DNA of 6,466 nucleotides from Holophagaceae bacterium (lineage in GTDB: Bacteria; Acidobacteriota; Holophagae; Holophagales; Holophagaceae), in assembly GCA_025353305.1 (NCBI GenBank), contig JANXQX010000004.1, positions 1 through 6,466 of the forward strand. Reading direction: 5' to 3'. The stretch's first letter is position 1. The number at the start of each line of letters is the position of its first letter. Below, one piece after another: positions 1 through 6,466 of this stretch. Below the pieces are notes generated by a model. It was not told the origin of the DNA. It was given only the letters and a program-made list of their open reading frames with translations, and did not search any database. The translations under genes and the position numbers were made by a program.

Positions 1-1
1 C

Positions 2-187
2 AAAACCTCGGCGCTGCTGGATGGCCTGCGCGGTGAAAAGGGCGTCGACAAGAAAGCAGTCGTGGATCTCATTCAACGCGTTTCACAACTGTTGTCTGAT
101 CTGCCTGCGATCCAGGAAATGGATCTGAACCCCGTCATGGCATTCGAGGACTGTGTTTTTGCGGTGGACGGACGGATAAGAATTTGA
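2..187 (+). CDS. Acyl-CoA synthetase (NDP-forming), C-terminal end, partial
   Basis: Only the last 61 residues are present; the gene enters from the left edge in frame 2 and stops at TGA 185-187. The visible part has a helix-rich stretch (LIQRVSQLLSDLPAIQEMD) followed by EMDLNPVMAF and a short strand ending VDGRIRI. This matches the end of the ATP-grasp (beta) part of ADP-forming acetyl/acyl-CoA synthetases, where an E-x-D-[LI]-N-P motif supplies a metal-binding Asn. Such enzymes interconvert acid + CoA + ATP with acyl-CoA + ADP + phosphate in the cytoplasm. The thiolase starts 42 bases downstream on the same strand, so this is probably the activating enzyme of the same operon. The substrate cannot be read from the fragment. 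A succinyl-CoA-synthetase beta-like protein is a less likely alternative. Confidence 0.75.
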   Translation, partial: KTSALLDGLRGEKGVDKKAVVDLIQRVSQLLSDLPAIQEMDLNPVMAFEDCVFAVDGRIRI

Positions 188-218
188 AAAGCAAGCCAAG
201 CAATCCAAATCATCAAAC

Positions 219-224
219 AAGGAA
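219..224 (+). promoter_or_regulatory. Ribosome binding site of the first thiolase
   Basis: AAGGAA lies five bases before ATG 230 in an otherwise A-rich 42-base spacer (188-229). It supports the ATG at 230 as the true start. No promoter or terminator is visible in the spacer. Confidence 0.6.
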
Positions 225-229
225 CACTC

Positions 230-1420
230 ATGTTGACCAAAGCGTTCATCCCCTATGGTGGCTACTTCAGCACTCCCTTTACGCGCTGGCAGGGAAGTTT
301 GGCCAATGAACACTCCATTCAACTGGGAGCCAAAACCTCCAAGCGCTTTTTCGAATCGAAGGGCTGGAATCCTTTAGAGATCCAATACGTCCTGGTCGGC
401 AGCACCGTCTATCAGAAACAGTGGTTCTACAGCGGTCCCTGGGCTGCGGCGTTAATGGGCGCCACAGAGGCGCCGGGCGTCCTCATTAATCAGGCCTGCT
501 CCACCTCCGCCTTCTCCATCTATCAGGCGGGCATGGGTCTTGAGACGGGGCTGTTCGACAACAGCTGGTGCCTCCTGGCGGATCGCTGCTCCAACGGTCC
601 CCACGCCACCTGGCCCAATCCCAACGGTCCTGGCGGCCAGGCCATTGCCGAGGACTGGGTCATGGACAACTTCGGCTTGGACCCATGGGCGGGCGGCGCC
701 ATGATCCAGACCGCGGAAAACGTGGCAAAGGAATATGGGCTGACCAGAAGCGAATGCGATGCCCTGACCCTCCGGCGGCAGGAGCAGTACCAGCAGGCCC
801 TGGCCAAGGACCGCGAATTCCAGAGGCGCTACATGTTCCCGGTCGAAATCCAGGTTTCCAAAAAGAAGATCATCACGGTCGAAGCTGACGAAGGAGTCTT
901 TCCGAGTACGGCAGAAGGGCTCGCGGCGCTCAAGCCGGTCCTCCCAGAAGGCGTGCATACCTATGGAACCCAGACCTATCCAGCGGATGGCAATTGCGGC
1001 ATCGCCGTGACCACGCGTGAGAGGGCCCGTGAACTGAGCGCCGACCCGAACTTGGAAATCCAAGTGATGTCCTTTGGGTTCGCCCGGGCCAAGAAGGGCT
1101 TCATGGGCGCTGCGGTGGCCCCCTCGGCCCAGATGGCCCTCGGCCAGGCAGGTTTGAAGCCCCAGGATCTGGGCGCCATCAAGACCCACAATCCCTTTGC
1201 ATCAAATGATCTGGCCATGGCCAAAGTGCTCGGATTGGATGCGAATGCCATGAACAACTACGGATCTTCTTTGATCTTCGGCCATCCCCAGGCGCCCACC
1301 GGTGCCCGCCTCATCATCGAAGGCATCGAAGAACTCGCCATGAAGGGCGGCGGCTATCTGCTTTTTTCGGGTTGCGCCGCGGGCGATACGGCGGCCTCCA
1401 TCGTTCTCAAGGTCGGGTGA
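230..1420 (+). CDS. Divergent thiolase family protein (acetyl-CoA acetyltransferase-like)
   Basis: This 396-residue protein is close to the usual thiolase length. All four thiolase active-site positions are visible: the nucleophile Cys90 in NQACSTSAFS, His320 in KTHNPFASNDL (in place of the usual H/N-E-A-F-A), His352 in GHPQAPTGAR, and Cys382 in SGCAAGDTAAS (in place of C-x-G-G-G). The N-terminus STPFTRWQGSL replaces the common RTPFGRFGGSL, and the usual GG before the GHP motif reads GS (NNYGSSLIFGHP). It should catalyse CoA-dependent cleavage of a 3-oxoacyl-CoA, or the reverse condensation. The divergent signatures place it away from PhbA and PcaF and recall thiolase-like proteins of anaerobic aromatic pathways such as BbsB, though that resemblance is from memory. 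BbsB-type enzymes work with a small zinc-ribbon/OB partner, and none is encoded next to this gene here. The ATG has an AAGGAA site, and the stop lies four bases before the hydratase start, implying translational coupling. Confidence 0.85.
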   Translation: MLTKAFIPYGGYFSTPFTRWQGSLANEHSIQLGAKTSKRFFESKGWNPLEIQYVLVGSTVYQKQWFYSGPWAAALMGATEAPGVLINQACSTSAFSIYQAGMGLETGLFDNSWCLLADRCSNGPHATWPNPNGPGGQAIAEDWVMDNFGLDPWAGGAMIQTAENVAKEYGLTRSECDALTLRRQEQYQQALAKDREFQRRYMFPVEIQVSKKKIITVEADEGVFPSTAEGLAALKPVLPEGVHTYGTQTYPADGNCGIAVTTRERARELSADPNLEIQVMSFGFARAKKGFMGAAVAPSAQMALGQAGLKPQDLGAIKTHNPFASNDLAMAKVLGLDANAMNNYGSSLIFGHPQAPTGARLIIEGIEELAMKGGGYLLFSGCAAGDTAASIVLKVG

Positions 1421-1424
1421 ATCC

Positions 1425-2207
1425 GTGGACTATCAATTCATCACGATGGAAGAGATGGGCCGGGTCCTGAAACTGAGCCTCCACCGGCCTTCCACCAATG
1501 CCCTGAACCGCGCCTTCGCGGAAGAGCTCTTCAATGCTTTCGGCGAAGTGGATCAGATGGAGGATGTGACGGTGGTGGTCATCACCAGCGCCTTGGAAAG
1601 GGCCTTCATCGCCGGAGCGGACATCAAGGAGATGGCCGCCATGGATCTGGTCGAATCAGAGGCTTTTTCAAAACTCCTGCAAGAGGCCTATTCCATCCTG
1701 CCCCGCATGAAGAAAGTTGTGATCGCGGCGATCAACGGCCACGCGATGGGTGGAGGCTGTGAGCTGACCCTGGCCTGTGATTACCGTTTCATGACGAGAG
1801 GAAAGGCTTTCATCGGCCTGCCCGAGGCTGGCCTGGGCATCGTCCCGGGGGCCGGAGGAACCCAGCGTCTGCCGCGTCTTGTGGGCCTTTCCAATGCCCT
1901 CGACATCCTTCTGCGCGGAAGAACTTTGGGGCCCGAGGAGGCCTTGGCGATCGGCCTGGTGGACCGGCTCTTCGATGCGGAGACCTTCACTTCTGAAGTC
2001 ATGGGGTTCGCCGCCACGCTTGCGTCCGGCGCGGGCAAAGCCCTGGGTTTCATCAAGGCCTCGGTCCACGAAGGCCTCGAACTGCCCATGGACAAAGCCC
2101 TGGATGTTGAACGCAGATACGGCCTGGAAAACCTGCAGACCCGCGACGCCAAAGAGGGCCTGAAGGCCTTCGCGGAAAAACGGAAACCCAACTTCACGAA
2201 TAAATGA
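1425..2207 (+). CDS. Enoyl-CoA hydratase/isomerase (crotonase family)
   Basis: The 260-residue protein has the full crotonase pattern. FIAGADIKEM (61-70) forms the first half of the oxyanion hole, and NGHAMGGGCELTLACDYR (104-121) holds the second half and the catalytic Glu113. LPEAGLGIVPGAGGTQRLPR (132-151) holds the second catalytic Glu134. With both glutamates present it should hydrate trans-2-enoyl-CoA to 3-hydroxyacyl-CoA, the step before the next gene's enzyme; PaaF-like 2,3-dehydroadipyl-CoA hydration is possible. I take GTG 1425 as the start because GGGTGA sits just upstream and the gap to the thiolase stop is only four bases. An in-frame ATG at 1446 (residue 8) is the alternative, but it has no Shine-Dalgarno sequence. 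The C-terminal segment KEGLKAFAEKRKPNF is typical of the family. Substrate chain length cannot be read from sequence. Confidence 0.9.
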   Translation: MDYQFITMEEMGRVLKLSLHRPSTNALNRAFAEELFNAFGEVDQMEDVTVVVITSALERAFIAGADIKEMAAMDLVESEAFSKLLQEAYSILPRMKKVVIAAINGHAMGGGCELTLACDYRFMTRGKAFIGLPEAGLGIVPGAGGTQRLPRLVGLSNALDILLRGRTLGPEEALAIGLVDRLFDAETFTSEVMGFAATLASGAGKALGFIKASVHEGLELPMDKALDVERRYGLENLQTRDAKEGLKAFAEKRKPNFTNK

Positions 2208-2225
2208 ATCAATCACAACATCTTC

Positions 2226-2231
2226 TGGAGG
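2226..2231 (+). promoter_or_regulatory. Ribosome binding site deciding the start of the 3-hydroxyacyl-CoA dehydrogenase
   Basis: TGGAGG lies five bases before ATG 2237. It favours that start over the upstream in-frame ATG at 2204, which overlaps the hydratase stop (ATGA) but has no such site. Confidence 0.75.
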
Positions 2232-2236
2232 ATGCA

Positions 2237-3103
2237 ATGAACATCGAAGAGATCAAGACCATAGGCGTAGCGGGCACCGGCAGCATGGGCGTGGGAATCA
2301 TGCAGGTCGCCGCCCAGGCGGGCTTCCAGGTCAAGGCGGTGGATGTAAGCCAGGCTGCCTGGGATAGGGCCCTCAAGGCGATCACCAAGAGCCTGGAACG
2401 GATGCTCTCCAAGGAGAAGATCACCGAGGAGCAGATGAAGGAGGCGCTTGGGCGGATCAGCTTCTCAACCGACCTCGAGTCCCTGAAAGAAGTGCCCTTC
2501 ATCTTTGAGGCGATCTTCGAAAACCTTGGCGCCAAGAAGGAGTTCTACGAGAAGCTGGATGCCATTTCCCGGGAAGACGTCATCTACGCCAGCAATACTT
2601 CGTCCCTCTCCATCACCGAAATGGCGGCTCTGGTGAAGCATCCGGGCCAGTTCATCGGGATGCATTTCTTCAATCCGGTCCCGATGATGAAGCTGGTGGA
2701 AGTCATTCCGGCCTTGCAGACCGAAAAGGCCACCGTCGACCTGGCCTTGGAGATGGCGAAAAGCCTCGGCAAGACGTCCATCACCTGCAAGGACACCCCG
2801 GGCTTCGTCCTGAACCGCCTGCTCGTTCCCTACATGCTCGATGCGGTCAGGCTTCTAGAGCAGGGCGTGGCTTCCAGGGACGACATCGACACGGCCATGA
2901 AATTGGGGGCCGGCATGCCCATGGGCCCCTTCGAGCTGATGGATTTCACGGGTGTCGAAATCTCCCAGTTCGTGGGGGACATCTTTTTCGAGGCCACCAA
3001 GGAACCCCGCTTCGCGCCTCCAGGGCTGCTTCGGAACATGGTGAAGGCGGGTTATCTGGGCCGGAAGACCGGCCGGGGATTCTACGAGTATCCCGCGAAA
3101 TAA
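2237..3103 (+). CDS. 3-hydroxyacyl-CoA (3-hydroxybutyryl-CoA) dehydrogenase
   Basis: The 288-residue protein matches the usual length of about 282-290 residues for HBD/PaaH-type enzymes. The N-terminal Rossmann fold begins IKTIGVAGTGSMGVG, with the NAD-binding G-x-G-x-x-G at 13-18. The catalytic set is intact: Ser122 in SNTSSLSIT, His143 in GMHFFNPVP with Glu155 in KLVEVI, and Asn193 in GFVLNRLL. Spacing equals that of clostridial HBD (S to H 21, H to N 50). The C-terminal helical domain carries GAGMPMGPFELMDFTG and ends GRKTGRGFYEY. It should oxidise 3-hydroxyacyl-CoA to 3-oxoacyl-CoA with NAD(P) in the cytoplasm, directly after the hydratase and before the thiolases. The start at 2237 is chosen for its strong TGGAGG site and because family members begin at this point; an 11-residue extension from ATG 2204 would overlap the previous stop. 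The TAA stop forms the centre of a perfect palindrome. Confidence 0.93.
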   Translation: MNIEEIKTIGVAGTGSMGVGIMQVAAQAGFQVKAVDVSQAAWDRALKAITKSLERMLSKEKITEEQMKEALGRISFSTDLESLKEVPFIFEAIFENLGAKKEFYEKLDAISREDVIYASNTSSLSITEMAALVKHPGQFIGMHFFNPVPMMKLVEVIPALQTEKATVDLALEMAKSLGKTSITCKDTPGFVLNRLLVPYMLDAVRLLEQGVASRDDIDTAMKLGAGMPMGPFELMDFTGVEISQFVGDIFFEATKEPRFAPPGLLRNMVKAGYLGRKTGRGFYEYPAK

Positions 3104-3110
3104 TTTCGCG
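3094..3110. repeat. Perfect palindrome centred on the dehydrogenase stop codon
   Basis: CGCGAAA, then TAA, then TTTCGCG: a 7-base perfect inverted repeat whose 3-base loop is the stop codon of the 3-hydroxyacyl-CoA dehydrogenase. The full 17 bases are symmetric around one central A. The sequence after it (CTTTCACGC) has no U-run, so it is not a standard intrinsic terminator. It might act as an RNA hairpin, a weak attenuator or a protein-binding site just before the fusion gene. It may also be chance, since half of it is coding. Confidence 0.5.
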
Positions 3111-3140
3111 CTTTCACGCACCACGGAAAAGGGATGGGTC

Positions 3141-6059
3141 ATGGATACTACGACCTTCGAGCCTAAAAAATTCGCAGTCATCGGCGCCGGCCCAGTGGGC
3201 TGTATCGTGGCGGCCTTCCTGGCCAAGGGAGGCTATGAGGTCACCCTTTGCGATATCGACATCAAGCTCCTCGAACCGGCGCTGAATCCGGGGATCATCA
3301 TCGAAGGAACCGACACGCTCCAGGCCAAAGTCACACGGATCACCACCCGGATCGAAGATTTGCATAACGATCCTCCCGATGTGATCGTGGTGGCCGTCAA
3401 GGCCATCGCCCTTCCCGCGGTGGCTTCCGCGCTTCGGGGTTTTTGCGATTCCAAAGGCAAGAGCGGCGGACCCTACGTCATCAGCTGGCAGAACGGCATC
3501 GACACGGAATTCCTGCTTGCCCAGCAACTGGGGAACCGTCCAGTCATGCGGGGCGTGGTCAACCTGGGCTGCGTTCCCATCGAGCCGGGCCGCGTCCGCA
3601 TCGGCTTCCACATCCGCCCCCACCACATCCAGGAACTCGATCCCCGTTCGCGCGATGCCGCCATCGCCATCTGCAGGGTATTCACGGAATGCGGCATGGA
3701 CACATTCCATTCCGAAGAGATCCGCGATCTGGTCTGGCGCAAGGCCATCCTGAACGGCTGCATGAACCCGATCTGCGCCGTGACCGGAAAAACGATGGCC
3801 GAGCTCATCGAGGATCCGATCCTCTTCCATCTGGTGGGCGCCCTCATCAAGGAAGGCGTGGCCGTGGCCCGCGCCAATGAGTATGCCCTGGGTTCGGGCT
3901 TCTACCCGTACTGCATCGATTACATCAAGAGCGCCGGCCATCACAAGCCCTCGATGCTTCAGGACATCGAAGCCGGCCGGCGCACCGAAGTGGACTTCAT
4001 CAACGGCAAGATCGCCGAGTACGGCGCCCAGGCCGAGGTTCCCACGCCTTACAACACCATGATCCGGGGACTGGTCAAGGCGATGGAATCGAAGGGGAAA
4101 GGGAACGGATTGGAAAAGGTGGAAATAGACATCAGGACCAGGGTTGCAGCCCTGACGGCCCGGATGTTCGACACTCCCCAGTACCCATCCCAGGGTGCGG
4201 TGCTGTTCGTGGACCTGGAGCGCCGGAAATCCTTTTCCAAGTTCCTTCCACGGGATGTATTTCGGACCTTTCTCTCCAATCGGGGGGGGAATATGTATCT
4301 CCTCTACAATCTTCTGCTGGAGGGCAGGGAAGCCCTGGATCCTCAGATCCCCTTGGTCTTCGGCAGCGGGGTTCTAACGGTGGCGGCACCATCGACTGCC
4401 CGGGGCCACGTCGCGAGCGTGTCTCCCGACAATCACGCCATTCTTGACAGCAATTGCGTTGATGCCTTCCCGGCCTTCCTTAAGATGCAGGGCTACGATC
4501 ATCTGGTTCTCTACGGCCAGGCTTCCGCGTGGACGCTTCTCGAGTTGTCGGCGGAAGGGACCCGGTTTCATGACGCGGCGCTTTACTTGGGAATGGACAA
4601 CACCGATTTCACCCAGGTCATCGAAAAGGATTTTTCCTGCACCGAACGCAAGGACATGGCCATGGCCCGCATCACCCGTGCGGGGGAAAACCAGGTCCTT
4701 TGCTCGGCGATCATGGGTGGGGCCGATGCCATGTACGCCAGGGGCGGCACCGGGGCCAAGATGGGCGGGCTGAAACTCAAGGCGGTCATGATTCTAGGGC
4801 GCCAGGCCGCACCCGTTCTGTCGCCAGCCGTCCAATGGAGCAACCATTCAACCCATTGGAATGACAATCTCGACGCTGAACACCTGGCCGGTTACCGGGC
4901 TGGATTGGAGGGGTGCCGACACTGCCCCATCCGGTGCAACAACCTGGAGCCCAAAGAAGAGCGAGCGCCTTACGACCAGCGCCATGACCCCGAGTACACA
5001 CCGCCCGAAGGATTGGGGCCGATGGTCGGAATCCATGACCGTGACCGGATTGCACGCCTCGACTCACTGCTCAACAATCTGGGATTGGATCCCGCAAGCA
5101 CCGGCGGTGCCATCGCCTGGGCCATGGAACTCTATCAGCAAGGCATCATCGCCCGGGCGGATACCGGGGGCCTCGAACTCAATCAGGGAAATTTTGAAGC
5201 CGTGGAGAAGCTGCTGTTCATGACCGCCAAACGCGAAGGCTTTGGCGATGTCATCGCGGACTCGACCCAGGCGGTTGAACGCGGAAAGTACCCAGAAAAG
5301 GCACTTCAATTCCGGATGGCTGTGGATGGACAATTCCAATCCGACCCCCATGACGAGAGCATCCTGGAAGGATTCGCCCTGGGCTTTGCCAAGGCGTCCA
5401 GGGAAGGCGAAGAAACGCTCGCCGTTGGGGACGCGGTGGGCATGTGCCGATTCGCCACAAGGCAGACCAATTCCTCGGCCGCGGCTGGACTGGATGACTT
5501 TGCGCATCAAATGAAAGAACTGACCCAGGAAGACTTCTCGATTAAGCAGCTCGAGGAAGTCGGCCTGAATATTTCAGGAATGGAGCGGCTCATCAATTCC
5601 CGCCTGGGCCTGGCTGAGAGGGACGCAGCACTGCTGGACCAGTGGATCGATGAAGAGATCCCGGAAGGCCCCTTCGCCGGAGAGAAAATAGACAAGACCA
5701 AATTCGAGGCGCTGAAGGATGGCTACGGTTCCTTCCTTGGCCAGAATGGGACTGGTTTCCCATCCTTGGAACGTCACCGCGGCCTCGCGGCCGTGACCAC
5801 GGGATTTGCCGTCAAAGTCACGATTCCCGAAGGATTTCCCGGTGTCTCCGAGGGGGCCATCATCCTGGATCAGCCCGTTGAAAATGTCGCCGAGCTCCGG
5901 CTGGCGCTGAAAAAGCGCTTTCCCCTCGCCAGCAAGCAATTCTCCGATAACTCCTTGATCATGGCGGTGGGCGGAACCGTAGTCATGGCGAACGAGAAGG
6001 CCTTTCCGATCCATAACGGCGACGAGATCGCCGTGCTGCGCATGGTTCCGGGGGTGTGA
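3141..6059 (+). CDS. Fusion: ketopantoate-reductase-like dehydrogenase + aldehyde ferredoxin oxidoreductase + MoaD/ThiS-like domain
   Basis: This 972-residue protein joins three domains in one uninterrupted frame. Residues 1-316 are a complete PanE/ApbA-type NADP-dependent 2-oxoacid reductase: dinucleotide motif GAGPVG (15-20) and catalytic Lys201, Asn205 and Asn209 in WRKAILNGCMNP. Ser271 and Glu283 lie in SMLQDIEAGRRTE. All five align in spacing with E. coli PanE K176, N180, N184, S244 and E256. After a charged linker (about 317-345), residues 346-885 are an AOR-family domain: VLFVDL, RGG (381-383), ARGGTGAKMGGLKLKAV (533-549), the cluster cysteines 592, 595, 599 (CRHCPIRC) and 769 (DAVGMC), and PEY with Glu618. 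It should bind a tungsten or molybdenum pterin and one [4Fe-4S] cluster and oxidise an aldehyde with ferredoxin. The segment between Cys599 and Cys769 is about 30 residues shorter than in Pyrococcus AOR. Residues 890-972 are beta-grasp, ending VLRMVPGV rather than Gly-Gly. The gene begins 37 bases after the dehydrogenase; GGGATGGG precedes its ATG. Cytoplasmic; no signal peptide. Substrates are unknown. Confidence 0.88.
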   Translation: MDTTTFEPKKFAVIGAGPVGCIVAAFLAKGGYEVTLCDIDIKLLEPALNPGIIIEGTDTLQAKVTRITTRIEDLHNDPPDVIVVAVKAIALPAVASALRGFCDSKGKSGGPYVISWQNGIDTEFLLAQQLGNRPVMRGVVNLGCVPIEPGRVRIGFHIRPHHIQELDPRSRDAAIAICRVFTECGMDTFHSEEIRDLVWRKAILNGCMNPICAVTGKTMAELIEDPILFHLVGALIKEGVAVARANEYALGSGFYPYCIDYIKSAGHHKPSMLQDIEAGRRTEVDFINGKIAEYGAQAEVPTPYNTMIRGLVKAMESKGKGNGLEKVEIDIRTRVAALTARMFDTPQYPSQGAVLFVDLERRKSFSKFLPRDVFRTFLSNRGGNMYLLYNLLLEGREALDPQIPLVFGSGVLTVAAPSTARGHVASVSPDNHAILDSNCVDAFPAFLKMQGYDHLVLYGQASAWTLLELSAEGTRFHDAALYLGMDNTDFTQVIEKDFSCTERKDMAMARITRAGENQVLCSAIMGGADAMYARGGTGAKMGGLKLKAVMILGRQAAPVLSPAVQWSNHSTHWNDNLDAEHLAGYRAGLEGCRHCPIRCNNLEPKEERAPYDQRHDPEYTPPEGLGPMVGIHDRDRIARLDSLLNNLGLDPASTGGAIAWAMELYQQGIIARADTGGLELNQGNFEAVEKLLFMTAKREGFGDVIADSTQAVERGKYPEKALQFRMAVDGQFQSDPHDESILEGFALGFAKASREGEETLAVGDAVGMCRFATRQTNSSAAAGLDDFAHQMKELTQEDFSIKQLEEVGLNISGMERLINSRLGLAERDAALLDQWIDEEIPEGPFAGEKIDKTKFEALKDGYGSFLGQNGTGFPSLERHRGLAAVTTGFAVKVTIPEGFPGVSEGAIILDQPVENVAELRLALKKRFPLASKQFSDNSLIMAVGGTVVMANEKAFPIHNGDEIAVLRMVPGV

Positions 6060-6090
6060 TTCCAACTGGCATTCACAACAAAGAAAAAGA

Positions 6091-6118
6091 TCACCGCCAA
6101 GACGCCAAGGACGCCAAG
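6091..6118 (+). repeat. Left arm of REP-like inverted repeat
   Basis: The arm is made of three CGCCAAG heptamers at 6095-6101, 6103-6109 and 6112-6118, preceded by TCAC. It matches the reverse complement of 6227-6254 at 25 of 28 positions. Both arms have a GAAAAA-type tract just outside. The pattern recalls the multicopy extragenic CGCCAAG repeats seen in many bacterial genomes. Confidence 0.8.
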
Positions 6119-6226
6119 TCAAAACAAGTTATTCAATTTTACAACGTGGGAATGCATGCAAGCGCACGTCATTTTCATGGCCACACCCAAAACAGATTCG
6201 TGTAAATAAAAACCACATGAGCATTT

Positions 6227-6254
6227 CTTGGCGCTCTTGGTGTCTTGGCGGTGA
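6227..6254 (-). repeat. Right arm of REP-like inverted repeat
   Basis: Reverse complement of the left arm with three differences (arm positions 14, 20 and 21). In a + strand transcript, positions 14 and 20 become G-U pairs, leaving a single A-C mismatch in a 28-base stem. It ends 32 bases before the next start codon. Confidence 0.8.
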
Positions 6255-6273
6255 AGTGTTTTTCAATCAGTCT

Positions 6274-6279
6274 AAGGAA
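6274..6279 (+). promoter_or_regulatory. Ribosome binding site of the pcaF-like thiolase
   Basis: AAGGAA seven bases before ATG 6287, the same type of site as at the first thiolase (219-224). It lies outside the inverted repeat, so the hairpin would not bury it. Confidence 0.6.
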
Positions 6280-6286
6280 ACAGCAA

Positions 6287-6466
6287 ATGTTTGATGCTTT
6301 CATCTGCGATGCAGTGCGCACGCCCATCGGTGCTTATGGCGGGGGCCTGTCGGGAATCCGGACCGACGATCTGGCGGCCCACCCCATCCAGGCTTTGATG
6401 AAGCGCAACCCCTCGGTCGATTGGGCACAGGTGGACGATGTGATGCTCGGCTGCGCCAATCAGGCG
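6287..6466 (+). CDS. pcaF: 3-oxoadipyl-CoA/acetyl-CoA thiolase, N-terminal part (partial)
   Basis: The first 60 residues are present; the gene runs off the right edge. It opens MFDAFICDAVRTPIGAYGGG, then LSGIRTDDLAAHPIQALMKRNPSVDW and DDVMLGCANQA. This closely follows the start of PcaF/PaaJ beta-ketoadipyl-CoA thiolases, in which RTP-IG-x-GG, RxDDLAA-P, LM-RNP-VDW and GCANQAG are characteristic. The family cleaves 3-oxoadipyl-CoA with CoA to succinyl-CoA and acetyl-CoA, the last step of adipyl-CoA, phenylacetate and beta-ketoadipate routes. The nucleophilic Cys would lie beyond the window, so integrity cannot be judged. With the hydratase and dehydrogenase upstream it would complete a PaaF-PaaH-PaaJ-like module. 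A generic acetyl-CoA acetyltransferase is the alternative. Confidence 0.8.
   Translation, partial: MFDAFICDAVRTPIGAYGGGLSGIRTDDLAAHPIQALMKRNPSVDWAQVDDVMLGCANQA

Follow-up and report, generated by a model that had tools for sequence, protein, structure and literature searches.

Class I enzymes of the AOR/WOR family (AOR, aldehyde ferredoxin oxidoreductase) are built from AFOR_N and AFOR_C domains, with four cysteines that hold a [4Fe-4S] cluster and the pterin-site residues R76, G341 and D343. A role in aldehyde oxidation has been proposed for four second-shell residues (Thr243, Glu313, Tyr427 and His448), which the available part of the source gives as conserved in most of the AORs it lists (PMC12096430). 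An AOR with a C-terminal MoaD domain is reported for Azoarcus in the accessible text of PMC1779556, and D-mandelate dehydrogenase is assigned to a family related to ketopantoate reductase (KPR) in the excerpted text of PMC4230899. We describe here a gene of a Holophagaceae bacterium that combines a KPR-type dehydrogenase, an AOR-like lobe and a ThiS/MoaD-like tail in one protein. It lies in a window of 6,466 nucleotides, the whole stretch of DNA that was analysed (GenBank assembly GCA_025353305.1, contig JANXQX010000004.1, positions 1 to 6,466, forward strand).

The fused protein has the domains, cysteines and pterin-site residues of class I in common with the AOR/WOR enzymes, but lacks E313, has the T243 and H448 loops deleted and carries an N-terminal dehydrogenase. 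As in the Azoarcus protein, a ThiS/MoaD-like domain sits at the C terminus of an AOR-family protein; in contrast, the available account of that protein names no dehydrogenase (PMC1779556), and the tail of the fused clade is without Gly-Gly. With the D-mandelate dehydrogenase of Enterococcus the fusion shares the five KPR residues, an Asp that ends strand 2, and the fold, but identity is only 26–27% and the dehydrogenase is joined here to an AOR lobe.

A further point of comparison is metabolic. According to the accessible section of PMC5109826, IorAB is produced by Desulfococcus multivorans on phenylpyruvate or phenylacetate, together with a CoA ligase and with a dehydrogenase, hydratase and thiolase; genes for PadB and PadEFGHI are lacking, phenyllactate supports growth, and the last step to benzoyl-CoA is termed unclear. 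For a benzene degrader, the sequence phenyllactyl-CoA to cinnamoyl-CoA to benzoyl-CoA is proposed in the part of PMC13416013 available. Neither "ketopantoate" nor "dehydropantoate" occurs in the main text, as available, of a 92-clade survey (PMC13328260).

In the literature searched, no pairing was found of "ketopantoate reductase" with "aldehyde ferredoxin oxidoreductase" or of "2-dehydropantoate 2-reductase" with "tungsten", and no characterised enzyme of this architecture came to light, as an earlier reading of the window from its letters alone (the sequence-only reading) had supposed. We regard the three-part protein as a novel combination of known parts; the pathway would be the more important result, should it be confirmed. 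The explanation that we prefer, with confidence that is about evenly balanced, is an NAD-type (R)-2-hydroxyacid dehydrogenase with a remodelled iron-sulfur/pterin lobe, made one gene through the loss of a stop codon and working in a module that leads from phenylpyruvate or phenylacetate to benzoyl-CoA.

The fused protein and its dehydrogenase domain

The gene is a single uninterrupted open reading frame (ORF; Table 1), and the fusion into one protein is confirmed. In the window protein, Pfam finds ApbA at residues 12–154 (68 bits against a cut-off of 22.2), ApbA_C at 194–316 (119.4 against 22.7), AFOR_N at 353–553 (127.1 against 29.8) and AFOR_C at 565–755, the better of two stretches (190.6 against 27). 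Both AFOR profiles exceed their curated cut-offs, which places residues 353–755 in the AOR family, an assignment on which the sequence-only reading had made its proposal depend. ThiS matches residues 908–971 with 20.6 bits, slightly below its cut-off of 22.5; the same profile scores 39.1 in the unfused relative at locus L008, and by homology through that relative the fused tail is ThiS-like. The order proposed from the letters, KPR followed by AOR and a beta-grasp tail in one frame, is thereby borne out, with ThiS falling just short. A short Rossmann-type match to Pyr_redox at 10–52 (23.9 bits against 22) overlaps ApbA inside the KPR part, and Pfam gives no separate flavin domain, in keeping with the earlier statement that the dehydrogenase carries no flavin.

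The frame is also continuous outside the window. Among the matches listed, 12 other full-length fused proteins from several sources have 970–1014 residues and 64–89% identity. In genomic DNA, the fused gene is complete in L001, from a Holophagaceae metagenome-assembled genome (MAG), and in L005, from another Holophagaceae MAG, one frame runs through the joint up to residue 436. An assembly artefact is ruled out by these proteins together with the L001 and L005 DNA, and the existence of fused relatives removes the possibility, raised at the outset, that relatives are always two separate genes. In the family of the draft genome G001, the fusion occurs in 2 of 77 genomes, those contributed by L001 and L004; the remaining matches there are distant AOR or KPR proteins.

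The N-terminal domain scores 188.4 bits against a cut-off of 141.35 for TIGR00745 (apbA_panE), and the five catalytic residues that the sequence-only reading had recognised are all present (N118, K201, N205, S271 and E283), so that both marks of a PanE-type protein are found together. We take these residues to correspond to N98/K176/N180/S244/E256 in PanE numbering; their spacing (K+4=N, S+12=E) and the alignments agree with this. Strand 2 closes with D38 (TLCD). In the alignment this residue falls on the Asp of D-mandelate dehydrogenase, whose structure was determined with NADH, whereas the T. kodakarensis KPR, whose structure was determined with NADP+, has Gly and then Arg-Arg. D38 suggests NAD as the cofactor and makes the NADPH of the earlier reading doubtful. 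In the predicted model, template modelling (TM) scores to the target are 0.82–0.88 for the KPR structures 5hws and 5ayv and 0.86–0.88 for the D-mandelate dehydrogenase structures 3wfj and 5x20; over the chains of 3wfi_A, 3wfj and 5x20 they span 0.75–0.88, with 0.68 for 3wfi_B. The domain would then act as an NAD-dependent (R)-2-hydroxyacid dehydrogenase that interconverts phenylpyruvate and phenyllactate, or phenylglyoxylate and mandelate.

Residues kept and lost in the AOR-like lobe

AOR residues were mapped through Pyrococcus AOR alignments to L008 and to the window protein, and counted over the 120 proteins listed of the 692 found in the protein search. These comprise 13 fused proteins, which carry all four Pfam domains and include the window protein, four shorter proteins of the same clade (P0014–P0017) and 103 proteins (P0018–P0120) assigned as unfused from their listed Pfam domains and length, not from DNA. 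The cluster cysteines 288, 291, 295 and 494, and R76, G341 and D343, are kept in 13/13 fused and 103/103 unfused proteins; N93 is kept in 13/13 and 84/103. A lobe with these residues would retain the [4Fe-4S] cluster and probably the pterin.

E313 is absent from all 120 proteins counted, being T, I, A or V in the 13 fused and V or T in the 103 unfused proteins. T243 is kept in 102 of the unfused proteins (the other has Ser) and deleted in 12 of the fused; the single fused row in which a Thr aligns is probably an alignment slip. Tyr427 is replaced by His in 103/103 unfused and 9/13 fused proteins, with Tyr itself in none of the fused, H448 is kept in 103/103 and 2/13, and D489 in 103/103 and 10/13. 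The complete second shell of a strict aldehyde oxidoreductase (Thr243/Glu313/Tyr427/His448) was found in none of the 13 fused proteins, and the window protein lacks all four residues. Compared with unfused L008, AFOR_C lacks about 40 residues ahead of its first cysteine motif and a second stretch of about 47 ahead of the final cysteine. Judged by its residues, the AOR lobe is not canonical, and with most of the second shell gone it would be no standard aldehyde oxidase; it may instead catalyse an altered redox reaction, with an aromatic carbonyl or CoA compound as substrate, or provide the dehydrogenase with a scaffold.

The C-terminal Gly-Gly is present in 101/103 unfused and 0/13 fused proteins, which, together with the ThiS score, leaves the fused tail without the marks of a ThiS/MoaD sulfur carrier. 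In those 101 unfused AORs of P0018–P0120, the Gly-Gly sulfur-carrier end is covalently joined to an enzyme that may use the cofactor. Of the four shorter proteins, all have lost the T243 loop and the Gly-Gly, and one keeps H448. Because these proteins share the changes, the two losses and the H448 pattern are, on this comparison, marks of the clade and not of the joining event.

When codons of the window are set against those of L001, L004 and L005, dN/dS lies between 0.05 and 0.20 in every segment compared, linker and domains alike, and all of these segments are under purifying selection. In the model of the fused protein, the predicted local distance difference test (pLDDT) falls below 50 at residues 561–623 and 726–782, the cluster and pterin stretches; an unfused control with intact loops is equally poor there, and both predictions were made from shallow alignments (55 and 43 sequences). 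The predicted structure was dropped as proof of a collapsed active site, the unfused control being just as poor.

These residues bear on two other accounts of the lobe. The sequence-only reading had envisaged oxo interconversion followed by aldehyde oxidation in coupled steps. In that form the idea is not supported: a 2-oxoacid reductase yields a hydroxy acid rather than an aldehyde, and the lobe is missing most of the second-shell residues to which a role in aldehyde oxidation is ascribed (PMC12096430, as available). The gene neighbourhoods described below support a shared pathway, though not a direct coupling of successive steps. A bifunctional enzyme could be imagined in another form, in which the AOR lobe oxidises an aromatic aldehyde, such as phenylacetaldehyde released by a 2-oxoacid:ferredoxin oxidoreductase, to the acid for the CoA ligase, with the parent 2-oxo acid left to the KPR domain. 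We consider this unlikely. The occurrence of IorAB and PaaK as neighbours of KPR relatives would fit it, as would the oxidation of phenylacetaldehyde and benzaldehyde by the A. aromaticum AOR (PMC6365974, accessible part), the cluster cysteines, R76, N93, G341 and D343 in 13/13 fused proteins, the purifying selection and the molybdenum cofactor genes in G001; the replacement of E313 in every fused and unfused protein argues against it, as do the deletion of T243 in 12/13 and the loss of H448 in 11/13 fused proteins, these residues being described as conserved in most AORs in the available text of PMC12096430.

Nor do we favour a catalytically dead lobe retained for folding, dimerisation or regulation of the dehydrogenase, a reading that we judge improbable. 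Two loops, second-shell residues and the Gly-Gly tail have been lost clade-wide, and the stem branch of the fused AOR clade is long, at 0.26, but the four cluster cysteines, R76, N93, G341 and D343 are invariant (13/13) and dN/dS is at most 0.20 in each AOR segment compared.

Origin of the fused gene

The loci compared here come from the best 80 of 192 candidates, which gave 77 loci, and counts over them are not a census. The KPR tree holds 104 rows, made up of 10 of the 13 fused proteins and of tblastn matches that contain no stop and cover 270 query residues or more; it is rooted by midpoint only, and L001 and L005 are labelled AORnext in it though fused. All fused rows form one clade (100/100), sister to L002, L006 and L048, and the surrounding rows mostly carry Geobacteraceae, Desulfuromonadales or Deltaproteobacteria labels. 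The AOR tree has 35 rows, comprising 10 of the 13 fused proteins, P0016, P0017 and, from the loci, 23 ORFs of 600 residues or more; the window, L001 and L004 were omitted as already represented. In this tree the fused proteins, P0016 and P0017 form one clade (100/100), on the long stem branch noted above.

A separate AOR gene follows the KPR gene in L002, L003, L006, L008, L023 and L029. At the L002 joint the two genes are in the same frame, and a single TGA and four codons precede the ATG of the AOR gene. Because only this one stop and four codons split them, the loss of a stop codon at a joint of this type is the likely origin of the fusion, and such a loss would yield the linker of the window protein. 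The lineage in which a KPR gene and an AOR/ThiS-like gene became joined has Holophagaceae as its named members. Its presence in 2 of 77 genomes of the G001 family speaks for transfer, and we infer that the gene pair was acquired horizontally from a Geobacteraceae/Desulfuromonadales-like donor.

P0016 and P0017 are of AOR length (644–645 residues), are listed without a KPR part and fall within the fused clade; their source was not found among 77 genomes searched, and they may be genes that have split again or may reflect start-site calls. At L006 10001–11002, the KPR gene matches in two frames, which would be a frameshift or an assembly error.

Gene neighbourhoods and a proposed module leading to benzoyl-CoA

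Table 1. Features of the window, with the parts of the fused gene; coordinates of the whole gene include the stop codon
Feature	Position	Strand	Basis or remark
ADP-forming acyl-CoA synthetase, 3' end (ATP-grasp_5)	2..187	+	Pfam; complete gene in L001
Thiolase, 396 aa	230..1420	+	Pfam and NCBIfam-type profiles; in 12/71 KPR loci
Enoyl-CoA hydratase	1425..2207	+	Profile matches
3-Hydroxyacyl-CoA dehydrogenase	2204..3103	+	Profile matches
Fused gene, KPR + AOR-like lobe + ThiS-like tail	3141..6059	+	972 aa
KPR-type domain, residues 1-320	3141..4100	+	GxGxxG 15-20, D38, N118, K201, N205, S271, E283
Linker, residues 321-345	4101..4175	+	Matches KPR end, spacer and AOR start of unfused relatives (alignment; L002 joint)
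AFOR_N domain, residues 353-553	4197..4799	+	Pfam
AFOR_C region, residues 565-885	4833..5795	+	Pfam and alignments
CxxCxxxC (C592, C595, C599)	4914..4937	+	Predicted [4Fe-4S] ligands
GDAVGMC (D764, C769)	5427..5447	+	Predicted fourth cluster ligand and pterin-site Asp
ThiS/MoaD-like tail, residues 891-972	5811..6056	+	Terminus PGV in place of GG
3-Oxoadipyl-CoA-type thiolase, start, truncated at window end	6287..6466	+	Profile match; complete gene in L001

The gene run in L001 reads Had, Dch, activase, HGD-D, acyl-CoA synthetase, thiolase, crotonase-type gene (a weak match only), dehydrogenase, fusion and thiolase. Had and Dch are assigned there by equivalog profiles, TIGR03201 with 574.2 bits against 338.65 and TIGR03189 with 439.8 against 292.5. 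L006 has the order BadF activase, HGD_D, ADP synthetase, thiolase, PaaK, IorA, IorB, ACT8, KPR and AOR; next to these, on the opposite strand, are an acyl-CoA dehydrogenase, a second BadF, BcrA (benzoyl-CoA reductase subunit A; TIGR02259, 720.2 bits against 578), two HGD-D genes and Oah. In L007, an unfused AOR comes after etf-like genes (assigned by eye), Had and Dch.

Gene counts were made by tblastn with identity thresholds of 35–55% and record presence anywhere in a locus, not adjacency; loci reach about 23 kb and many are ended by contig edges. A simple ORF map was sometimes antisense or over-long (892 and 996 aa in L006), and the tblastn recounts were used instead. KPR is found in 71 of the 77 loci, AOR in 30 and both in 24. 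Within the 71 loci, KPR occurs with ACT8 (55), IorB (38), IorA (31), PaaK (29), HGD-D (25), activase (24), synthetase (24), TRAP permease (17), thiolase (12) and AMP-forming ligase (9). This context points to an anaerobic module, in which the fusion would work, that converts arylpyruvates or arylacetates (phenylalanine-type compounds) to benzoyl-CoA. The KPR module and the D. multivorans cluster share IorAB, CoA ligase, dehydrogenase, hydratase, thiolase and TRAP uptake, although the D. multivorans section, in the text available, names neither ketopantoate reductase nor AOR (PMC5109826). By analogy, the module of the window type may be that of D. multivorans.

A more specific version, which we put forward tentatively and think less probable than not, is a so far undescribed route from phenylpyruvate to benzoyl-CoA through a KPR-activase-dehydratase module. 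KPR would make (R)-phenyllactate from phenylpyruvate; cinnamoyl-CoA would arise through a CoA ligase and a radical dehydratase of one subunit (HGD-D with the activase BadF); and hydratase, dehydrogenase and thiolase would then yield benzoyl-CoA and acetyl-CoA. With phenylacetate as substrate, the 2-oxoacid:ferredoxin oxidoreductase would act in the direction of carboxylation. The AOR lobe of the fusion would be a repurposed, aldehyde-inactive iron-sulfur/pterin unit. Such a route, if true, would explain growth on phenylacetate or phenylpyruvate without PadB and PadEFGHI. A lone HGD-D beside an activase is seen at L055 2973–4226, L057, L072 and L001 3712–4965; its best NCBIfam match is HadB, far under the cut-off.

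In a further alternative, the lobe would be a tungsten enzyme recruited beside ring-reduction genes, with a function like that of BamB; its substrate would be a ring compound bound to CoA, and loop loss would admit this bulky molecule. The order Had-Dch-AOR in L007, the presence of Had, Dch and the fusion in one gene run in L001, Bcr-Oah next to the KPR-AOR pair in L006 and the lack of E313, the proposed general base for aldehydes, in 120/120 proteins would be in line with it. We nevertheless hold it to be very unlikely: a class II benzoyl-CoA reductase would be expected to have BamB as its closest match, but the lobe is no nearer to BamB than to AORs in sequence (BamB aligned over AFOR_N only) or in fold (BamB at rank 8), and G003–G005 have paired HGD-D and BadF genes of the class I reductase kind, BcrA being confirmed in G005/L006. 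The draft genome G001 as a whole gave one HGD-D match and no AOR match other than the fusion, and the lobe was therefore considered as its missing benzoyl-CoA reductase. This was set aside because a fragment of Oah runs up to a contig edge (C168), and the reductase genes may be in missing sequence.

Several observations weigh against the preferred explanation, a dehydrogenase with a remodelled lobe in a benzoyl-CoA module. AOR seems dispensable to the module, because 47 of the 71 KPR loci show none. Matches to IorAB and PaaK were not found in L001, where the upstream genes are VorB-like and KorB-like (2-oxoacid:ferredoxin) with another synthetase, and the surroundings of the fused gene are visible only in the window, L001 and the short L004 and L005. 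The HGD-D partner occurs as a single subunit, while known (R)-2-hydroxyacyl-CoA dehydratases have two such subunits. The substrate and direction of the KPR domain are inferred from neighbouring genes, and the predicted fold matches KPR and D-mandelate dehydrogenase about equally. The AOR part of the model superposes poorly on solved AORs (root-mean-square deviation 10–14), and the model is unable to judge the active site. Because MoaA, MoaE and MoeA matches are present in G001, the pterin cofactor can probably be made there and the lobe may be active.

Other features of these loci stand apart. L008 has a paralogous KPR pair (8503–9456 and 9989–10933) around an ACT-pair gene, an arrangement that recurs in other Desulfuromonadales loci. 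A second AOR branch (L012–L017, L030–L034) lies downstream of the KPR cluster in several of its loci, where it is preceded by genes of the TRAP transporter, universal stress protein and transglutaminase-like types. Between the fusion and the next thiolase, the window has an inverted repeat (6084–6118 and 6227–6261; arms of 35 nt, 83% complementary, 108 nt apart) that looks like a small mobile-type repeat element, and a 15-base piece of it occurs twice in L004, in opposite orientation, downstream of the gene. A promoter and terminator scan gave 0 promoter-like and 8 terminator-like sites (3.4 in shuffles), which none of the readings uses.

The fusion physically links a dehydrogenase family usually labelled "ketopantoate reductase" to a benzoyl-CoA gene cluster, and therefore suggests that one group of "PanE" genes in anaerobes is catabolic. 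An AOR-family branch without the residues that underlie the proposed aldehyde mechanism puts this mechanism to a natural test. The conserved cluster also provides named candidates for the conversion of phenylacetate or phenylpyruvate to benzoyl-CoA without Pad enzymes in some sulfate and metal reducers.

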